From Agromyces italicus DSM 16388 (GTDB lineage Bacteria > Actinomycetota > Actinomycetes > Actinomycetales > Microbacteriaceae): a DNA stretch of 64,000 bases. Below the pieces are notes generated by a model that worked only from the letters and a program-made list of their open reading frames with translations, did no database searches and was not told the origin of the DNA. The position numbers and the translations under genes were made by a program. The stretch lies in the NCBI RefSeq assembly GCF_000421545.1, contig NZ_ATXF01000006.1, positions 434,001-498,000 on the forward strand, read 5' to 3'. This document shows, one piece after another, positions 136 through 58,680 of the stretch (position 1 is the stretch's first letter; each line of letters opens with the position of its first letter).

Positions 136-1125
136 ATGACGAACCAGATGATCACCGCACAGGGCCTCACGAAGACGTTCCGCTCGAAGGGGCAGACCGT
201 CGAGGCCGTCCGTTCACTCGACCTCACCGTCGGCGAAGGCGAACTCGTCGCCTTCCTCGGCCCGAACGGGGCCGGCAAGTCGACGACCCTTCGCATGCTC
301 ACCACTCTGCTTCCCCCGACGAGCGGCGACGCCGTCGTGGCCGGATGCGATGTCCGCCGCGATCCCGCCGGCGTACGCCGCCGCATCGGCTACGTCGGCC
401 AGGGCAGCTCGGGCGGGCACACCCAGCGCGTGCGCGACGAGCTGCATGCCCAGGGCGCGTTCTACGGGATCGGCCGTCGAGAGACGCGCACCCGGGCCGC
501 CGAGCTGATCGAGTCGCTCGAGCTCGGACAGGTCGCGAACCGCACGGTGCAGTCGCTCTCGGGTGGGCAGAAGCGCCGGCTCGACATCGCCCTCGGGCTG
601 ATCCACCGGCCCGAGCTGCTCTTCCTCGACGAGCCGTCGACGGGGCTCGACCCGCACAGCCGGGCGAACCTCTGGCAGCACATCGTCGAGCTGCGCCGGG
701 CCACCGGCACCACCATCTTCCTCACGACGCACTACCTCGACGAGGCCGATCGGCTCGCCGAACGCGTCATGGTGATGGACCACGGCTCGGTCATCGCCGA
801 CGACACCGCGTGGGCCCTCAAAGGGTCGCTCGCGGGCGACCGGGTCACGCTCACCTTCGAGAACGCGACGGATGCCTCGGCCGCCGCCGCACGCCTCGGC
901 GGTGAGATCGGCGGGGCCGAGGGTGCCTCCGCCCACGTGGTGAACATCACGGCGCCCGGCGGCGACCTCGCGCTGCCCCGGTACATCCTCGAGCTCGCCG
1001 AGCTCGGCATCGAGGTCGCCGCGGCCACCCATCGGCAGCCGACCCTCGACGATGTGTTCCTCGCGCTCACCGGGCGCAGCCTCCGCGACGAGGCGGCGCA
1101 CGCCGAGCCCGCCCTCGTCGGTTGA
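136..1125 (+). CDS. ABC exporter ATP-binding protein, DrrA type
   Basis: Cytoplasmic ATPase of an ABC-2 exporter of the daunorubicin-resistance (DrrA) class, powering the permease encoded just downstream. Walker A GPNGAGKST lies at residues 42-50, the signature LSGGQ near 142 and Walker B LLFLDEP near 164, followed by the H-loop TTH. The C-terminal 80 residues form the accessory domain typical of DrrA-like ATPases, ending in QPTLDDVFLALTG. The ATG at 136 is preferred because the reading frame upstream has no family-like sequence; a second ATG at 148 is possible. Exported substrate unknown. An unusual tandem repeat separates it from its permease. Confidence 0.9.
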   Translation: MTNQMITAQGLTKTFRSKGQTVEAVRSLDLTVGEGELVAFLGPNGAGKSTTLRMLTTLLPPTSGDAVVAGCDVRRDPAGVRRRIGYVGQGSSGGHTQRVRDELHAQGAFYGIGRRETRTRAAELIESLELGQVANRTVQSLSGGQKRRLDIALGLIHRPELLFLDEPSTGLDPHSRANLWQHIVELRRATGTTIFLTTHYLDEADRLAERVMVMDHGSVIADDTAWALKGSLAGDRVTLTFENATDASAAAARLGGEIGGAEGASAHVVNITAPGGDLALPRYILELAELGIEVAAATHRQPTLDDVFLALTGRSLRDEAAHAEPALVG

Positions 1126-1232
1126 GGAGCGGCGCTCCGCTCCTCCTCAACCCACCCGGTTTCGAGACGTCGCTCCGCGCCTCCTCAACCCACCCGGTTT
1201 CGAGACGGCGCTCCGCGCCTCCTCAACCCACC
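1120..1232. repeat. Tandem 38-bp repeat between the exporter genes
   Basis: After an inverted repeat overlapping the exporter ATPase stop codon (GGTTGAGGAGCG at 1120-1131 against its complement near 1138-1152), a 38-bp unit beginning CGCTCCGC and ending GTTTCGAGACG occurs at 1133-1170 and 1171-1208, with a 24-bp partial third copy at 1209-1232. Unit sequence belongs to the GGTYGAGGAG...CTCGARACC dispersed family seen elsewhere in the window. Confidence 0.85.
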
Positions 1233-12030: not shown

Positions 12031-12057
12031 GGTCTCGATACGCTTCGCTACTCGACC
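12031..12057. repeat. Dispersed GGTCTCGATACG...TACTCGACC repeat
   Basis: A 27-bp imperfect palindrome between prpD and prpB, just upstream of the prpB ribosome binding site. Its ends match the longer elements found inside hemE, hemG and a gntR gene. Confidence 0.7.
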
Positions 12058-22859: not shown

Positions 22860-22895
22860 GGTTTCGAGCCGTCGCTGCGCTCCTCCTCCTCGACC
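22860..22895. repeat. Dispersed GGTTTCGAGCC...CTCGACC repeat
   Basis: Has the same end sequences (GGTTTCGAG and CTCCTCGACC) as the elements at 1133, 53980, 56393 and 57948. Confidence 0.65.
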
Positions 22896-50639: not shown

Positions 50640-51613
50640 GGCTGCTCCTCAGGGGGAACGAGGTCTGCGGCGCCGTTGCCGAGGAGTTCGTCGACGACGC
50701 GGTCCGCGACGTCGCGTGCCGCATCCGCCAGATCGGCGGCCGAGCGGCTTTCGGGTGTGGCCGCGTGCGAACTGGTGAGTCGCCGCGTCCCGTCGGCACT
50801 GTACACGCTCGCCGTCAGGAACAGAAGTTCGTCCTCGAGGAACGCGGTCGCCCCGACCGGGGCCGCGCAACCCGCCTCGAGTCCGGCGAGCACCAGGCGC
50901 TCGGCGAGCACGGTCGCCCTCGTGGCGGCGTGGTCGATCGCCTCGAGCGCCCGTTCGAGGTCGGGTCCGCCGCGCTCGCGACGCACCTCGATCGCGAGTG
51001 CGCCCTGGCCCGGTGCGGTCGGCCAGTCGTCGAGCGAGAGGTGGTCGGTCGCGGCATCCAGGCGCCCGATGCGGCCGAGCCCGGCCGCGGCGAGCACGAC
51101 GGCGTCGAGCCGCTGCCCTGAGCCCGTCGAAGGGTCGCCTCCGAAGACTCGGCCGAGCCGGGTGTCGATGTTGCCGCGGAGGTCGACCGCGACGACGTCG
51201 GGCCGTGCGGCGCCGAGCTGCGCGATGCGTCGCGGCGAGCCGGTGCCGACGCGCGCGCCCTCGGGCAGCGTCGCGAGGGTGAGCCCGTCGCGGGCGCACA
51301 GCACGTCGCGGGCGTCGACCCGCTTCGGCACGGCGCCGAGGCGAAGGCCTTCGTGCTCCGCCGTCGGCAGGTCCTTCAGGGAGTGCACGACGAGGTCGCA
51401 CTCCCCGGCGAGCAGCGCCTCGCGGAGTGCAGCGGCGAAGACGCCGGTGCCGCCGATCGAGGCGAGGGAGGCGCGCGAGGTGTCGCCCTGGGTCGTGATC
51501 GGAACAAGCTCGATCTCGGCCCCTGCGGCCTTCGCGATCCGCTCGGAGATCTGACGCGTCTGCGCCATCGCGAGTGCACTGCCGCGGGTTCCGACCCGGA
51601 TGACGGCGGTCAT
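50636..51613 (-). CDS. hemC: Hydroxymethylbilane synthase (porphobilinogen deaminase)
   Basis: Polymerises four porphobilinogens. The 325-residue protein has RVGTRGSALAMAQT, the KDLP catalytic loop in VVHSLKDLPT, GTGSPRRIAQL and the dipyrromethane-cofactor cysteine in LEAGCAAPVGA. Between LRGNIDTRLGRV and LDAVVLAAAGL, where homologues need only a short link, it carries an extra GDPSTGSGQR segment encoded by a common dispersed repeat (51113-51136). ATG 51613 overlaps the hemH stop. Confidence 0.94.
   Translation of the reverse strand: MTAVIRVGTRGSALAMAQTRQISERIAKAAGAEIELVPITTQGDTSRASLASIGGTGVFAAALREALLAGECDLVVHSLKDLPTAEHEGLRLGAVPKRVDARDVLCARDGLTLATLPEGARVGTGSPRRIAQLGAARPDVVAVDLRGNIDTRLGRVFGGDPSTGSGQRLDAVVLAAAGLGRIGRLDAATDHLSLDDWPTAPGQGALAIEVRRERGGPDLERALEAIDHAATRATVLAERLVLAGLEAGCAAPVGATAFLEDELLFLTASVYSADGTRRLTSSHAATPESRSAADLADAARDVADRVVDELLGNGAADLVPPEEQP
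51113..51136. repeat. CCCTGAGCCCGTCGAAGGG dispersed repeat inside hemC
   Basis: A 24-bp copy of a short repeat family that is widespread in high-GC genomes, inserted in frame and read as part of the STGSGQR segment on the minus strand. Confidence 0.75.
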
Positions 51614-52713: not shown

Positions 52714-53462
52714 TACTGCAGGACCTCCACGAGCTCGGCGGTCGAGATGCGTCGACCGGTGTAGAACGGCACCTCTTCGCGCACGTGCCTGCGCGCGTCG
52801 GTGGCGCGCAGTTCGCGCATGAGGTCGACGAGTTCCGTGAGCTCGTCGGATTCGATCGGCAGCAACCATTCGTAGTCGCCGAGCGCGAAGGCGCTGACGG
52901 TGTTGGCGATCGCACCGCGGAACGCGGCGCCCTTGCGGCCGTGATCCGCGAGCATCCGGCTGCGCTCGGCCGGGTCGAGCAGGTACCACTCGTAGCTGCG
53001 CACGAACGGGTAGACCGTGAGCCAGCTCTTGGGCTCGATGCCGCGCAGGAACCCGGGCACGTGCGCCTTGTTGAACTCGGCATCGCGGTGCACGCCCATG
53101 GCGTTCCACGTCGGCAGCAGCGCCTTCAGGAGTCGGGCGCGGCGCAGCTCGCGGAGCGCCCATTGCAGGCCCTCGGCGGTCGGGCCGTGCAGCCACAGCA
53201 TGACGTCGGCGTCGGCGCGGAGGCCGGAGACGTCGTAGATGCCGCGGAGGGTCACGCCCTCGTTCTCGACGAGCGAGATCACGCCGTCGAGCTCTTCGAC
53301 GACGCGGCGCACGTCGTGCCCGTCGAAGTCGTCGGGGCGGGCGGGGTCGCGACGGAGCACCGCGAAGACCGTGTAGCCCTCTGGAGGCTGGCCGTCGGCC
53401 CCTGCAGCATCGGAATGGTTCTGGAACGCGTCGGCTGCCGCTTCGGCAGCGGGGGAAGACAT
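52713..53462 (-). CDS. hemQ: Coproheme decarboxylase
   Basis: HemQ/ChdC turns coproheme into haem b by two oxidative decarboxylations. The 249-residue protein belongs to the chlorite dismutase-like family: YTVFAVLRRD, VMLWLHGPTAEGLQWALREL, KSWLTVYPFVRSYEWYLLDP (with the reactive Tyr of the Y-P-F-x-R-S-Y-E-W-Y region) and HGRKGAAFRGAIANTVSAFALGDYEW are all present. ATG 53462 has an AAGGGGGAG tract upstream. It marks the pathway as the coproporphyrin route. Confidence 0.94.
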   Translation of the reverse strand: MSSPAAEAAADAFQNHSDAAGADGQPPEGYTVFAVLRRDPARPDDFDGHDVRRVVEELDGVISLVENEGVTLRGIYDVSGLRADADVMLWLHGPTAEGLQWALRELRRARLLKALLPTWNAMGVHRDAEFNKAHVPGFLRGIEPKSWLTVYPFVRSYEWYLLDPAERSRMLADHGRKGAAFRGAIANTVSAFALGDYEWLLPIESDELTELVDLMRELRATDARRHVREEVPFYTGRRISTAELVEVLQ

Positions 53463-53594
53463 GACTCCAGTCTCCCCCTTTCGGAGCGAACGGCCAAAAG
53501 CATCATGGATGCCGCATGCCCGCGCCGCTCGTTCGCCGCGCCGCCGGCGCCCCCCGGCTCCCACCGCAGGCCCGACCCCCGCCATGCATTCGGC

Positions 53595-53648
53595 GATCGC
53601 CACGATCTCGGATCAACCGGCAGGCATCGCCCCGAGATTGCGGCGATC
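53595..53648. terminator. Hairpin between gntR and hemQ
   Basis: GATCGCCACGATCTCGG at 53595-53611 pairs at 15 of 17 positions with 53632-53648. It lies after the GntR gene in its direction of reading and before hemQ, so a terminator is most likely; an operator role is possible. Confidence 0.5.
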
Positions 53649-53699
53649 TCCGAAACCGTGGCGGGTCCGAGCCCCCTCGACACGGGAGTGCGCGCGCCC

Positions 53700-54383
53700 T
53701 CAGCTCTCGAGAAGCTGCTCGGTCGAGTGGGCGATGTGCTCCCGCATGGGCTCGGCCCCTCGCGACTGCACGGCCTCGAGCAGTTCGCGGTGCTCGGCGA
53801 TGAGCCCCCTGAGGGTGTGATGGGGCCGGATGTGCAGCAGGAACAGCAGCAGCTCGCTGCCGATCGCGTCGTGCTCCTCGATGATGCGAGGGCTCGCCGA
53901 GACGGCCACGACCGCACGGTGGAAGTCGGCGTGCAGTCGCTCCACCTCGAGCCAGTCGACTCCGTCGCCGCCCTCGGGTGGATCCGCAGCGCCGGACGAA
54001 GGAGGACGCGTATCGAGACCCTCGAGCTGCTCGAGCACCGCGAGCGCCGGCGCGAGCACCAGCTCGGGCCACACCGCACCATGGAGTTCGCCCGCGATCC
54101 GCACCGCCTCGCCCTCGAGCGCCGCCCGCAGTTGCTGGAGGGCGACGAACTCGTCGCGGTCGAAGCTCACGACCCGCACCCCGCGGAACGCCTCGGCCAC
54201 CGCCAGCCGCTCGGCGACGAGCCGTTGGAACGCCGCCCGTACCGTGTGCCGCGACGCCCCGAACCGTTCGGCCGCGGCCTCCTCGCGGAGCGGTGAGCCG
54301 AGCCCGACCGCTCCGCTCAGGATCTCGGCGCGCAGCGCCTCAGCCACCCGTTCGACGGCGGTGTCTGCGGAGGACGGCGACAC
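53700..54383 (-). CDS. GntR family regulator with a repeat insertion
   Basis: A 227-residue regulator with a GntR winged helix (residues 8-72; AAERFGASRHTVRAAFQRLV recognition segment) and an FCD effector domain (FHRAVVAVSASPRIIEEHD, EHRELLEAV). Between the first FCD helix (LEQLEG) and WLEVERLHADFH it carries about 20 extra residues, LDTRPPSSGAADPPEGGDG, encoded by a 41-bp dispersed element. The gene sits inside the hem cluster, so control of hem genes or of the adjoining envelope genes is plausible but unproved. GTG 54383 follows GAGAGGATG. Confidence 0.83.
   Translation of the reverse strand: MSPSSADTAVERVAEALRAEILSGAVGLGSPLREEAAAERFGASRHTVRAAFQRLVAERLAVAEAFRGVRVVSFDRDEFVALQQLRAALEGEAVRIAGELHGAVWPELVLAPALAVLEQLEGLDTRPPSSGAADPPEGGDGVDWLEVERLHADFHRAVVAVSASPRIIEEHDAIGSELLLFLLHIRPHHTLRGLIAEHRELLEAVQSRGAEPMREHIAHSTEQLLES
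53980..54020. repeat. 41-bp dispersed element inside the gntR gene
   Basis: About 34 of 41 bases match the element inside hemG (shared GACGAAGGAGGACGCGT core and ATCGAGACC end). It is read on the minus strand in the same frame as in hemG (TRPPSSGA). Confidence 0.8.
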
Positions 54384-54406
54384 CGGGGCATCCTCTCTCG
54401 TACGGC

Positions 54407-54715
54407 TCAGTCGCCGAGCTTCGATCGGACGATGAGCCAGACGAGGCCGCCGACCGCTGCGGCGACGCCGACGGCGGCCGCGATCGCGACGCCCGGCTGC
54501 TCGTCGTAGAACGCCTTGAGCGACACCTTGGCCCGGTCGACCCTGATGCCGACCTGCTTGGGCACGTTGAGCTTGTCTTCGAGCGCGTCGAGCGTGCGGG
54601 CGAACTCGTCGCGAGCCCGGCGCGAGGCGACGCGCGCCTGCACCCTCGTGAGGTTGCGCTCGCGCTGCGCGGTCTCGCGCTTCGAGGGCCGGGGCGCGTC
54701 AGTAGCGGCGGTCAT
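54407..54715 (-). CDS. DUF3618 family membrane protein
   Basis: A 102-residue protein. A basic, helical N-terminal half with the DUF3618 pattern RARDEFARTLDALEDKLNVP is followed by one membrane helix (about 73-96) ending KLGD. Function unknown; in actinobacteria it commonly sits beside a holin-like gene and a YtxH-like gene, as here. ATG 54715 is chosen, with GGGGACGG upstream; GTG 54721 is possible. Its 5' end overlaps the holin-like gene by 17 bp. Confidence 0.83.
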   Translation of the reverse strand: MTAATDAPRPSKRETAQRERNLTRVQARVASRRARDEFARTLDALEDKLNVPKQVGIRVDRAKVSLKAFYDEQPGVAIAAAVGVAAAVGGLVWLIVRSKLGD

Positions 54716-55106
54716 AGTCACCCGTCCCCTTCAGTGCGTCGAGGTCGGCCTTCAGGCTCTCGACCGATTCGAGCGGTTCGGAGCCCCGCTTGAAGTTCAC
54801 GATGCCGATCCACACGAGCACGGCGATGATCAGCAGCAGCACCCCCGAGACCACGAGCGCCGCCGCCCACGCCGGCATGACGAGTGCGAGCGAGAAGATC
54901 GCGGCGGCGAGCAGGGTGAAGATCAGGAAGGGCAGCACGACCAGGGCGACGACGAAGAAGCCCGAGCCGATGCCGAAGTGCTTCACCTTGTACGTGACTT
55001 CGGCCTTGATCTGGTCGATCTCGGCGCGCACGAGGCTGGAGATCGTGTCGGGCAGTTCGCCGATCAGTGTGAAGAGCGAGCGTTCGTCGTTCGTCGGTGC
55101 GGCCAT
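54699..55106 (-). CDS. Phage-holin-like superfamily III membrane protein
   Basis: A 135-residue protein of the actinobacterial holin-X/DUF1469 family: N-terminal amphipathic helix (LPDTISSLVRAEIDQIKAEV), two membrane helices (about 46-70 and 77-103) and a charged C-terminal helix. Despite the family name, chromosomal copies are not lytic phage holins so far as known; the setting suggests an envelope-stress role. ATG 55106. Part of a three-gene module with DUF3618 and the YtxH-like gene. Confidence 0.83.
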   Translation of the reverse strand: MAAPTNDERSLFTLIGELPDTISSLVRAEIDQIKAEVTYKVKHFGIGSGFFVVALVVLPFLIFTLLAAAIFSLALVMPAWAAALVVSGVLLLIIAVLVWIGIVNFKRGSEPLESVESLKADLDALKGTGDYDRRY

Positions 55107-55145
55107 CGCGCGGTCACCTCGGTTCTCTGAGTCGGATGCCGCGGG

Positions 55146-55649
55146 CTAGGCGCCGCGCGACGTGCTGCCACGCTTCGGGGCTGCGGTGGTCGGCTTCGCG
55201 GCGGACTTCGCCGGCTTCGCGGCGGACTTCGCCGGCTTCGCGGCGGACTTCGCCGGCTTCGCGGCCTTCTCGGCCGCGTCGGCGGCGGAGTCGATCGCCT
55301 CGCTCAACGTGTCGGCCACGTTGTCGACCGCCGACTTCGTCGCACGCGCGCCGCTCGAGACCCCCTCTTTGGCCTTCGCGGCGGCGTCGGAGACGTCGCG
55401 CTTCGTGGCGCCCGAGCCGCGGGTCGCGTTGCCGATGAACGACTTCACGCCGTCGAGCACGGTGTCGGAGAGATCGCCGACCTTGTCGGCGGCGAACCCC
55501 TTGACCGTGTCGACGCCCTGCTGCACGGCCGGGGTGTTCCAGACGCCCTCGGCGGCGCGCTTGATCTGCTCGTAGCGTTCGCGGCCCGCCCGGGTGCCGA
55601 GGACGTACCCGACTCCGAGTCCGACGACGAAGAGGACCTTGCCCTTCAT
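55146..55649 (-). CDS. YtxH-like protein with Lys/Ala repeat tail
   Basis: A 167-residue protein. The N-terminus (MKGKVLFVVGLGVGYVLGTR) is one membrane helix ending in the GTRAGRERYEQI pattern of YtxH-like proteins. An amphipathic, possibly coiled region follows, then a histone-like tail rich in AAKPAKS encoded by three perfect 21-bp repeats. Such tails may bind nucleic acid or acidic polymers; function unknown. ATG 55649 with GGGGGTG upstream. It lies 103 bp after hemG in the same direction. Confidence 0.8.
   Translation of the reverse strand: MKGKVLFVVGLGVGYVLGTRAGRERYEQIKRAAEGVWNTPAVQQGVDTVKGFAADKVGDLSDTVLDGVKSFIGNATRGSGATKRDVSDAAAKAKEGVSSGARATKSAVDNVADTLSEAIDSAADAAEKAAKPAKSAAKPAKSAAKPAKSAAKPTTAAPKRGSTSRGA
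55191..55264. repeat. 21-bp tandem repeat in the YtxH-like gene
   Basis: CGGCTTCGCGGCGGACTTCGC-type units start at 55191, 55212 and 55233, with an 11-bp partial unit at 55254. The copies are identical at DNA level, which points to recent expansion by slippage. Confidence 0.9.
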
Positions 55650-55752
55650 GTGCACCCCCGACTTCCCGCGCTGCGGCGCATGCAGCGACCTCTCCAGCGT
55701 AGACCCCGCGCGGGGCCGCGCAAGGGGGTTGCGTCGAAATATTCCGTTTCGG

Positions 55753-57264
55753 CTATGCAGTGCCGTCGGGCGCGACCCGCCGGTGCCGGACATGCGCCGC
55801 AGCGCCCTTCGCATGCGGCACGACCGACGCGAGCCCCGTGCCCGACACCCACGACCCGGTCACCTCGATGCCCGGTTCGGCGGCGATCGTCTCTTCGAGC
55901 GAGCGCACCCGCTCGTGCTGGCCGAGGGCGGCGTGCGAGACGGCGTCGCGCCAGACCGTGCGGCCTGCGGCACGGAGCATCCCCGTCTCGAGCGGCACGC
56001 CCAGCAGTGTGCCCGCGTCGGCGAGCGCGAGCGCCGTGACCTCCTCGTCGCTGCGCCCGTCGAGCGGGTTCGGCTGCCCCGCGCGGCCGTAGGAGAGTCG
56101 CACGACGTGGCGCCCGCCCGCGGCCTCGGCGAGCCACGACCACTTCGCGGTCGAGTGGGTGAGCGCCTTCGCGGCGACCCCGGGCGTGTCGGCGGCGACG
56201 AGCACGCCGGTTCCGCGGGGTGCCGCATCGAGGGCCGGCGCGTCGAGCACGAGGGTCACGAGTTCGATGGAGGCCCCGTGCGGCCAGTCCGCCGTCGACT
56301 CCCAGCCCTCGACGGCCGCCTCGAGCAGGCCGAGCGAGGTGTGCGCTGCGGCGGCGAGCACGAGGTCGGGCGCGCTGAGCTCGACCTCCGTCGGTCGAGG
56401 AGCGCCCGACGAAGGAGGACGCGTCTCGAGACCCTCTTCGCCGTGGGCGGCGGCGCGGACGAGCCACCCGTCGCCGTCGCGTTCGAGCCCGGTCGCCTCG
56501 ACCCCGGTCAGCACGGTCACCCCGAAGCGCTCGAGTTCACGCGCGAGCGCGTCGACGAGCGTGTGCATGCCGCCGCGGAGGCCGCGGACGGCGCCGCCCG
56601 CCTTGCGCTGCTCCACCAGCTGGCCGACGCCGCCCGAGAGCGAGCCGGTGCGGGTCATCGCCTCGTTGAGCCCGGGGGCGACCAGGTCGAGGTCGAGCAG
56701 CTCGGGGTCGGCCGAGTAGACGCCGGAGGAGATCGGCGCCACGAGCCGGTCGAGCACCGCCCGGCCCATGCGCGAGCGCACGAGCTCGCCGAGGCTGTGC
56801 GCCCGGCCGATGCGGAGGATCGGCTTGAGCCGGTCGAGGTAGGCGCGGGTCGCGCCGCTCCAACCGATGATGCGGCGCACGTCGTCGCCGAGCGGGTTCG
56901 CGGGGATGCCGAGCACGCCCGTCTTCGGCAGCGGTGCGGCGTCGAGGCCGCTGCCGCCGCCCCAGACCAGCCAGGCGCCGGCGCGGTTCGGGTCGACGAC
57001 GTCGTCGGCGAGGCCGAGGGAGGCGAGCAGCCCGGCGACCCCGTCGCCGCGGGTCGCGAACGACTCGGCGCCCGAGTCGAGGGTGAGCCCGTCGAGCACG
57101 ATCCGGCCGACGCATCCGCCGAGCTCGTCGCGCCGCTCGACGATCGTGACGGCGAGGCCGATCTTCGCGCACTCGAGGGCGGCGACCATGCCGGCCACGC
57201 CGCCGCCGATCACGACGACGTCGGCCGAGCGCCGCTCGACCCCCGCCGGCGCCGGGTCGCTCAC
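55753..57264 (-). CDS. hemG: Coproporphyrinogen III oxidase (HemG/HemY type, CgoX)
   Basis: FAD enzyme that oxidises coproporphyrinogen III to coproporphyrin III in actinobacteria; often annotated protoporphyrinogen oxidase. The 503-residue protein has the FAD motif VVVIGGGVAGMVAALECAK, ERRDELGGCVG, LDSGAESFATR, ISSGVYSADPELLDL and the C-terminal GSWVSGTGLASVVPHAKGAA. Near residue 285 it carries about 14 extra residues (GLETRPPSSGAPRPT) coded by a 41-bp dispersed element. GTG 57264 overlaps the hemE stop by GTGA. Confidence 0.92.
   Translation of the reverse strand: MSDPAPAGVERRSADVVVIGGGVAGMVAALECAKIGLAVTIVERRDELGGCVGRIVLDGLTLDSGAESFATRGDGVAGLLASLGLADDVVDPNRAGAWLVWGGGSGLDAAPLPKTGVLGIPANPLGDDVRRIIGWSGATRAYLDRLKPILRIGRAHSLGELVRSRMGRAVLDRLVAPISSGVYSADPELLDLDLVAPGLNEAMTRTGSLSGGVGQLVEQRKAGGAVRGLRGGMHTLVDALARELERFGVTVLTGVEATGLERDGDGWLVRAAAHGEEGLETRPPSSGAPRPTEVELSAPDLVLAAAAHTSLGLLEAAVEGWESTADWPHGASIELVTLVLDAPALDAAPRGTGVLVAADTPGVAAKALTHSTAKWSWLAEAAGGRHVVRLSYGRAGQPNPLDGRSDEEVTALALADAGTLLGVPLETGMLRAAGRTVWRDAVSHAALGQHERVRSLEETIAAEPGIEVTGSWVSGTGLASVVPHAKGAAAHVRHRRVAPDGTA
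56393..56433. repeat. 41-bp dispersed element inside hemG
   Basis: Begins GGTCGAGGAGCGCCCG and ends CGTCTCGAGACC on the plus strand. It matches the hemE element at 38 of 41 positions but is translated in another frame. Confidence 0.88.
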
Positions 57265-58457
57265 GCCGCACCCGCCTCGTGCACGAGCTCGACGACGCGC
57301 GTGAGCACCGTCGGGTCGGTGTCGGGCGGCACGCCGTGGCCGAGGTTGAAGACGTGGGCCGGCGCGGCTTCGGCCTGGCGCAGCACCTCGCGCACCGCGG
57401 CCTCGAGCACGGGCCACGGCGCCGCCAGCAGCGCGGGGTCGAGGTTGCCCTGCAACGGCACGTCCGCGCCGACCCGTTCGGCCGCGATCGAGAGCGGCAC
57501 TCGGTAGTCGACGCCGACGACGTCGACCCCGACCTCCTTCATCGCGCCGAGCAGCTCGCCGGTGCCGACGCCGAAGTGCACGACCGGCACCGGGCGGGCG
57601 GCCTGCGCCTGCCCCGCGGCATCCGTCGTCCGGTACTCGAGGTCGTGCACGTGGCTGAGCGCCTTCGCCGAGGCGGGCGCGACGTGCGTCTCGTAGTCGG
57701 CGAGCGAGAGCGCGCCGGCCCACGAGTCGAAGAGCTGGGCGGCCGAGGCGCCTGCGAGCACCTGGGTGCGCAGGAAGCGCCCGGTGAGTTCGGCCGTCCA
57801 CTCCATGAGCGCGCGCCACGCGCCGGGGTCGGCGTGCATGAGGGTCCGGGCGGCGAGGTGGTCCTTCGAGGGGCCGCCCTCGGTGAGGTACGCCGCGAGC
57901 GTGAAGGGCGCACCGGCGAAGCCGATGAGCGGGGTCGTACCACTGCTGGTCGAGGAGCGCCCGCCGAAGTCGGACGCGTCTCGAGACCCGGCCACCGCAG
58001 TCGTGTTGAGCTCGGCGATCGTGCGCTGCACCGCCTCGGTGATCGGGCCGGATGCCTCGTCGAGGCGTGCGGGGTCGATCGCCGTCAGCTCGGCGACCGC
58101 AGAGGCATCCCCGTAGCCCTTGCCGAAGACGGGCCCGCGGCCCGGCTGAATCTCGACGTCGACGCCGACGAGCTTCAGCGGCACGACGATGTCGCTGAAG
58201 AAGATGCCCGCGTCGACCCGGTGGCGCCGCACGGGCTGCAGGGTGATCTCGCTCGCCATCGCCGGGTCGAGGCAGGCGTCGAGCATGCGCGTGCCGACTC
58301 GCAGATCGCGGTACTCGGGCAGCGAGCGGCCGGCCTGCCGCATGAACCAGACGGGAGTGGTGTCGGCACGTTCTCCGCGGTAGGCCCGCACGAGTCGCGA
58401 GTCGGAGGTGAGGCCTGCGGAGAGCGGGTGCTGCGGGGAGAGGATCACGCCCGACAT
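57261..58457 (-). CDS. hemE: Uroporphyrinogen decarboxylase
   Basis: Removes four acetate carboxyls from uroporphyrinogen III to give coproporphyrinogen III. The 398-residue protein has PVWFMRQAGRSLPEYR, FSDIVVPLKLVGVDVEI (catalytic Asp), PLIGFAGAPFTLAAYL and VFNLGHGVPPDTDP. Just before PLIGF it has about 17 extra residues (GSRDASDFGGRSSTSSG) coded by a 41-bp dispersed element, which makes it longer than usual homologues of about 350 residues. ATG 58457. First gene of the leftward hem cluster. Confidence 0.94.
   Translation of the reverse strand: MSGVILSPQHPLSAGLTSDSRLVRAYRGERADTTPVWFMRQAGRSLPEYRDLRVGTRMLDACLDPAMASEITLQPVRRHRVDAGIFFSDIVVPLKLVGVDVEIQPGRGPVFGKGYGDASAVAELTAIDPARLDEASGPITEAVQRTIAELNTTAVAGSRDASDFGGRSSTSSGTTPLIGFAGAPFTLAAYLTEGGPSKDHLAARTLMHADPGAWRALMEWTAELTGRFLRTQVLAGASAAQLFDSWAGALSLADYETHVAPASAKALSHVHDLEYRTTDAAGQAQAARPVPVVHFGVGTGELLGAMKEVGVDVVGVDYRVPLSIAAERVGADVPLQGNLDPALLAAPWPVLEAAVREVLRQAEAAPAHVFNLGHGVPPDTDPTVLTRVVELVHEAGAA
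57948..57988. repeat. 41-bp dispersed element inside hemE
   Basis: Same element, orientation and length as in hemG, 38 of 41 bases alike, but read in a different frame (SRDASDFGGRSSTS). Confidence 0.88.
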
Positions 58458-58680
58458 TGTCTCGCATCGGGCTGGGAGGGCGGCCACCGACCGACAAGAG
58501 GAAGGAAAGCTCACAGATGCTTCCCCCGGCGGCGCTCGGCGCGCTAAGGTCGGAGTCGTTGTGCGCCACCCACGCACGGCGACGCACCCGCCGCGGTGCG
58601 CCTCCGCCCCCCACGGAGATCCGCATGTCCCGAACGATGTCGTCCGCCCTGCCCGTCGCGCCCGCCCCGAGAGGCGCCCG

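Follow-up and report, generated by a model that had tools for sequence, protein, structure and literature searches.

The locus examined here raises the question of why three different genes carry nearly the same piece of DNA. In a 64,000-nt stretch of the genome of Agromyces italicus DSM 16388 (contig NZ_ATXF01000006.1, positions 434,001 to 498,000; hereafter the window), hemE, a hemG-like gene and a gntR gene each contain a palindromic element of 41 bp in frame. An earlier reading of the bare sequence (hereafter the sequence-only reading) had interpreted these elements as copies of a small mobile repeat. We analyzed the elements, their relatives in other genomes and the proteins in which they lie. 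The three elements are probably copies of a dispersed, hairpin-forming mobile repeat family of Agromyces, a soil bacterium (Microbacteriaceae), similar to repetitive extragenic palindromes (REPs) and bacterial interspersed mosaic elements (BIMEs). The original observation was partly confirmed, and its interpretation was partly supported.

Three elements in hemE, hemG and gntR

The hemE element is located at 57948..57988 on the minus strand, within the uroporphyrinogen decarboxylase gene (57261..58457, minus strand), to which Pfam URO-D was matched in two stretches. It is read as GSRDASDFGGRSST and matched the covariance model of the family with an E value of 2.2e-09. The second element (56393..56433, minus strand; read as GLETRPPSSGAPRP; E 1.7e-09) lies in a protoporphyrinogen oxidase-like gene at 55753..57264 on the same strand. 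Pfam assigned this gene to Amino_oxidase, the flavin amine-oxidase family, and the name hemG follows the earlier naming and the gene order. The third element (53980..54020, minus strand), read as GLDTRPPSSGAADP, is found in a gene for a GntR/FCD regulator (53700..54383, minus strand; Pfam GntR and FCD).

These element coordinates were identical to those in the sequence-only reading, and 38 of 41 bases match between the hemG and hemE copies, as it had stated. The end GGTCGAGGAGCG, said to be common to all three, is present in the hemE and hemG copies, but the gntR copy reads GGATCCGCAGCG there. The gntR copy has 7 mismatches with the hemG copy and was matched by the covariance model only at 53994-54020 (E 0.36); from its bases, it looks like a decayed copy of the 41-bp unit. 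Two peptide readings had been described, SRDASDFGGRSSTS in hemE and TRPPSSGAPRPT in hemG, and both were borne out, with gntR using the hemG frame. Readings of the 41-bp DNA within this one genome include GLETRPPSSGAPRP, SRDASDFGGRSST and, from the other strand, RVEERPTEEDASRN. Inside genes, at least three frames of this DNA are thus in use, so that no peptide is conserved.

A dispersed family with fixed arms and a variable core

The family consists of imperfect palindromes with a fixed 12-nt 5′ arm (GGTYTCGAKACG), a variable core of 0 to 22 nt among the copies scanned, and a fixed 10-nt 3′ arm (CTMCTCRACC). Of the bases that directly follow the 3′ arm, the third is C in 95% and the fifth is G in 68% of 59 copies, so that the true unit probably extends a little further on this side, by a few bases.

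A genome-wide count, suggested as a check in the sequence-only reading, found the left-arm pattern 94 + 83 = 177 times in the 3.73-Mb genome and 0 + 1 times in a control read backwards. Scanning for both arms identified 85 elements in contig C5 (778 kb) of the same genome. The window yielded 6, and 400 kb each of genomes G019, G017 and G026 yielded 59, 53 and 27, respectively; all reversed sequences gave 0. At least about 115 copies are present in this Agromyces genome, and the repeat is far above chance. The covariance model, in a search that used stricter filters and gives lower bounds, matched 47 of 60 Agromyces genomes, from 1 to at least 116-120 times each; 14 genomes were at or near the latter number and 13 had no match. 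Left-arm counts across 296 genomes of the phylum were mostly near background. G270, from another family of the same class, contained 293 left arms, with the same arms and longer cores; many of its listed copies follow one another at intervals of about 165 bp, in arrays found at around two dozen loci (e.g., L119, about 1440-2040).

Covariation of the arms

Two arm pairs vary and covary, both in 24 chosen elements and in 153 distinct elements from four genomes. Among the 24 elements, 97.9% of cells were paired compared with 92.0% in shuffles, and 14 cells were changed on both sides compared with 5.7; none of 500 shuffles was as high in both. The pair 4-40 was CG in 80, TA in 48, TG in 16, CA in 5 and another combination in 4 of the 153 elements, and the pair 9-36 was GC in 84, TA in 54, TC in 7, GA in 2 and another combination in 6. 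In the predicted fold, TC bulges out on one side, and single C residues do so on the opposite side. Because two arm pairs covary, the alignments support a selected hairpin.

A general search for stems with a TC bulge followed by GA was abandoned because the coding background swamped it (TC/GA ranked 24 of 256 combinations); the family is claimed on the basis of the specific arms. Self-complementarity of the core beyond shuffles was weak (83 cores, mean z −0.23) and is not claimed. An Rfam search of positions 53000-58600 of the window returned two matches, both far below the gathering score.

Insertion into the HemE linker

The sequence-only reading proposed that family members need only a short linker where the elements lie and suggested a search for empty sites. 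In hemE, the corresponding linker of relatives is indeed short. Among 13 rows from other genera, eight have one or two residues at this site and five have a somewhat longer linker. The peptide was present in 0 of these 13 rows; this comparison with distant genera, set beforehand, did not refute insertion. The alignment comprised 27 of 31 sequences, leaving out L061, L064, L104 and L110. In 33 genomes, the linker ranged from 36 to 93 nt; it was minimal in two additional Agromyces rows, L065 and L069. L052, L065, L069 and L070 failed the anchor used for this linker table and are absent from the trees described below; L012, L015, L027 and L029 were tabulated but are likewise missing from the trees.

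We examined the position of the insert in an AlphaFold model of the window HemE (mean predicted local distance difference test score, pLDDT, 89.1). The only segment with a pLDDT below 50, residues 157-173, is the insert, located between a helix (138-154) and a strand (178-183). It also falls where the match to a B. subtilis-type UROD chain (2inf_A) breaks into two stretches. In this model, the insert is a predicted disordered loop.

On the hemE tree, 9 of 29 rows carry a palindrome: four of the 41-bp kind, three of the GGTTTCGACRGGCTCAACC kind, and one each of GGTCTCGACCGGCTCGACC and CCTTCGACGGGCTCAGG. The 41-bp kind is scattered and does not form one clade. In two sister pairs, starred on the tree, one partner carries the 41-bp kind (the window's strain and A. 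bauzanensis) and the other a short linker (DNGSGTATP in A. lapidis; likewise short in strain H66). A single clade of the four 41-bp carriers was rejected in the approximately unbiased test (p-AU 2.6e-48), as was a single clade of all nine carriers; the tested groups were named after the first tree had been seen, and the test also omits L068. In a second hemE linker, A. cavernae has two elements, and Agromyces sp. Marseille-P2726 has two part-copies besides one full element. Five model matches lie in or beside hemE-hemG in A. cavernae. Taken together, short linkers in relatives, palindromes that differ between species, the use of several frames and the predicted loop argue for insertion and not for protein conservation, as had been claimed.

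Other host genes

The linker of gntR is occupied repeatedly. Besides the decayed 41-mer in the window, a related decayed copy occupies this position in Agromyces sp. S2-1-8 (L051). G026 carries an intact 41-mer in the linker, and G019 carries a 35-mer that is oriented the opposite way. The A. humatus linker (L039 12926-12949 and 12962-12990) holds two other palindromes, GCCCGA...TCGGGC and GGTGGGCA...TGCCCACC.

LigD contains at least three elements in G019, another Agromyces, and the homologous gene of G026, also an Agromyces, contains two. A prolyl oligopeptidase of this genome carries two 41-mers on the opposite strand, and G019, G026 and G017 have a short linker there. One copy is in a helicase of this genome with HA2 domains, which appears to be HrpA-like. 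Related palindromes were also found in another genus, Agrococcus, in a hemG loop of L084 and L094 and at a like position in L098.

Genomic placement and head-to-head pairs

Of 230 elements in five sequences, 26 were called genic and 204 were not, using a rule based on GC content by codon position whose calls include false or doubtful ones. The element at G017:363188 proved to be ordinary conserved sequence, 91% identical in C5 of this genome, and those at G019:253500 and 253538 align antisense to a region without a called gene in the window. C5:73314 has an empty core, and its homologue search gave no match. The 41-bp element of the sequence-only reading is real, but it is one length class of a larger family that is mostly not called genic. 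This class is modestly enriched in genes (5/13 vs 5/78, p 0.005, in C5 and the window; 7/27 vs 19/203, p 0.019, in all five sequences). A rule that single genic copies have a length of 2 modulo 3 was weakened when more genomes were counted (6/11 genic and 20/66 nongenic singles) and is not claimed.

The genes flanking nongenic clusters were convergent in 25 cases, divergent in 9, in the same direction in 51 and unclear in 36. The ratio of 25 convergent to 9 divergent differs from the background of 518:517 (binomial p 0.009).

Many copies occur in pairs. Among pairs less than 60 bp apart in C5, G019, G017 and G026, 54 of 87 were head to head. The arm subtype agreed in 42 of these 54 (26 expected; 0 of 5000 shuffles), and none of the 54 had the same core (2.1 expected; P 0.10 only). 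Spacing depended on type: GGTTTCGAG-type pairs were 18 bp apart in 10 of 21, and GGTCTCGAT-type pairs were 7-10 bp apart in 12 of 15. The spacers look unrelated, and 77 of the 230 copies have no neighbor within 60 bp.

Origin of the elements

Copies lie both in and outside genes, copy numbers are specific to species and hemE carriers are scattered; for these reasons we infer that the family moves. We suggest that it spreads within the genome by a mechanism outside the Y1/RAYT type (RAYT, REP-associated tyrosine transposase). What is recognized may be the single strand in its folded form, and the enzyme, working in trans, would not be of the Y1/RAYT type. New copies would insert with little regard to genes, and those that shift the frame or cause damage would be removed by selection. 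The genic copies that remain would be those in loops where an extra 12-15 residues may do little harm, in proteins that tolerate them (HemE, HemG and GntR are examples).

Several points weigh against this reading. Presence and absence were seen between species only, and no movement event was seen within a species. For the long family, target duplication and the exact junction are unreadable because linkers diverge between species. The Y1/RAYT transposase (PF01797) was found in 0 of 60 Agromyces genomes, including that of the window, by a search that was positive in 5 of 14 control genomes. No recurring homologous gene and no parent transposon was found in 37 intervals between neighboring elements. 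The shuffles and Fisher values take no account of relatedness, and most invariant arm positions follow from the picking pattern, so that only the two covarying pairs are free; among the 24 elements, the number of pairs with two-sided change and that of further pair types were not above shuffles. Finally, exchange of hemE alleles or gene conversion between species could scatter an element on the tree, and allele exchange is a live alternative for the scattered pattern. Of the mobile repeat proposed by the sequence-only reading, the insertion is supported, but the movement is inferred and a mobilizing enzyme was not found.

Three other explanations were considered. It is rather unlikely that hemE received one ancestral insertion, which was later lost, shrunk, rebuilt by template switching in the hairpin, or passed on with hemE alleles. 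Such a history would fit the palindromes that several species have at this site and that differ in length but not in their outer arms (e.g., GGTCTCGACCGGCTCGACC in A. cerinus, and GGTTTCGACAAGCTCAACC with a second copy in ISL-38). It would also fit the TAxxG-like left flank of most inserted alleles, which is unlike the DNGSGTAT linker of many empty species. It fits poorly with the identity (41/41) of the 41-bp unit in A. bauzanensis, A. cavernae and A. humatus, since the tree places A. bauzanensis apart from the other two, with the rejection of both groupings of carriers, and with the different outer bases of CCTTCGACGGGCTCAGG in Root81. Less probable still is that the repeats are binding sites or RNA hairpins, serving a nucleoid protein or mRNA stability, that were multiplied by selection and gene conversion and are not mobile. 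Head-to-head pairs with subtype-matched arms and preferred spacing, the bias away from divergent genes and the covariation would all be expected of such sites, but homologues of several genic copies do not have the segment (prolyl oligopeptidase, the G026 GntR and LigD), and 13 of the 60 Agromyces genomes had no match.

That the segments are ordinary conserved protein insertions, their DNA being alike through codon bias, seems hardly credible. Within a single frame, the peptides of hemG and gntR do resemble each other (GLxTRPPSSGA). However, copies of this DNA also lie outside genes, on the other strand and in other frames, and the use of several frames contradicts protein conservation; the segment is also absent from the 13 other-genus rows.

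We prefer a dispersed family of mobile hairpin repeats. A further proposal is more tentative: that these elements form an actinobacterial hairpin class without RAYT, defined by head-to-head pairs with matched arms, differing cores and a preferred ruler of 18 bp (or 7-10 bp) of unrelated DNA, and that it repeatedly adds new loops to the same essential enzymes. The pair rule would point to a system that mobilizes single-strand hairpins and acts on two partners at once. That the class uses a new kind of mobilizer is possible, though we would not favor it at present.

Related copies in the window and short palindromes

Related intergenic copies had been reported near 1133-1232, 12031 and 22860, and we could confirm them with finer bounds. 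Three lie in tandem outside called genes: a symmetrical relative at 1120..1152 (no strand assigned), in which both ends are of the 3′-arm kind, and 33-bp copies at 1158..1190 (plus strand; E 8.9e-09) and 1196..1228 (plus strand; E 5.7e-09). A 27-bp copy with GATACG/CTACTC arms (12031..12057, plus strand; E 2.3e-07) and a partly decayed 36-bp copy (22860..22895, plus strand; E 0.002) were not called genic. These relatives are shorter (27-36 nt), and their cores differ from those of the 41-bp copies.

A different, shorter kind of palindrome, CCTTCGACGGGCTCAGG, lies within a 24-nt insert in hemC (51110..51133, minus strand), which is in frame and read as PSTGSGQR; Pfam Porphobil_deam identifies the gene product as porphobilinogen deaminase. 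At the DNA level, the codons on either side of the insert are adjacent in G026 and in four other-genus rows, a similar insert is present in G019, and in several Agrococcus rows the site has its own short linkers.

Short TTCGACRRGCTCA-type palindromes are common in many bacteria. Three whole Agromyces genomes (G003, G025 and G030) had 0 matches to the long model and 266, 189 and 62 short TTCGACRRGCTCA sites (controls 3, 4 and 6), as if the short family replaced the long one in some Agromyces. G359 had 375 short and 36 long sites. In A. mediolanus (L059 613-784 and L060 670-867), GCTTCGACRAGCTCAGCG, a GC/GC version of the short palindrome, forms tandem and inverted arrays. The short palindromes resemble the long family in occupying the same place in hemE, in their outer architecture (TTCGA...TCA), in the opposite orientation of many listed close pairs and in lying in frame in hemC. 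They differ in size (about 17-19 nt) and in their outer bases (GG/CC, CC/GG or GC/GC).

Meaning of the family

If the elements do move, they form a REP-like population in a lineage in which the search for the REP-associated enzyme found none. Its driver could then be sought directly, as 13 of the 60 genomes of the genus had no match and 14 were at or near the highest counts. The linkers of hemE and gntR, filled by different repeats in different species, provide a natural record of loop gain in essential enzymes. For annotation, odd inserts rich in S, R, G and P in Agromyces proteins can be recognized as DNA repeats.

Comparison with known systems

We compared the family with known repeats as described in three papers (PMC3733652, PMC3116915 and PMC10969869). 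The sequence-only reading had named the palindromic elements of Rickettsia as the analogue. These also are in-frame palindromes in unrelated genes that the proteins tolerate (PMC10969869, PMC3733652), but they are given as about 150 bp long with a conserved peptide (PMC10969869), whereas the Agromyces elements are of about 41 bp and are read in several frames and on both strands. REP/BIME repeats found inside genes are a closer match and replace that analogy.

REP/BIMEs are palindromes tagged with GTAG and CGTC. They also occur inside genes, among them genes for RNA helicases, DNA repair and a DNA ligase, and two Xanthomonas species have REPs at about the same recB site (PMC3733652). Like the Agromyces family, they are imperfect palindromes of 20-45 nt with high copy number, present as singles and dimers, and are mostly intergenic, mainly between convergent or same-direction genes, with few between divergent ones. 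Unlike them, the Agromyces family has a highly variable apical core and occurs in genomes among which Y1/RAYT was found in 0 of 60. GTAG or GGAG is present inside one Agromyces arm (GGTCGAGTAGCG), where it is not terminal and its second base covaries with its partner. The main text of PMC3733652 does not contain the term "actinobacter".

REP doublets forming hairpins (REPINs) share with the family inverted doublets with a preferred spacing and two alternative folds, one long hairpin or a clover (PMC3116915). The Agromyces doublets differ from this description in their seemingly unrelated spacers, in never sharing a core among the 54 head-to-head pairs, in the 77 of 230 copies without a close neighbor and in that no RAYT was found. 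Searching the openly accessible literature with arm and core strings returned no paper that appears to treat such repeats. Genic insertion of REP-like repeats is not new as such; as far as our searches show, the novelty lies in the lineage, in the lack of a detected RAYT, in the combination of a variable core and matched arms, and in insertions that recur in the same loops. The family is best classified among the REP-like repeats, as a RAYT-less variant.

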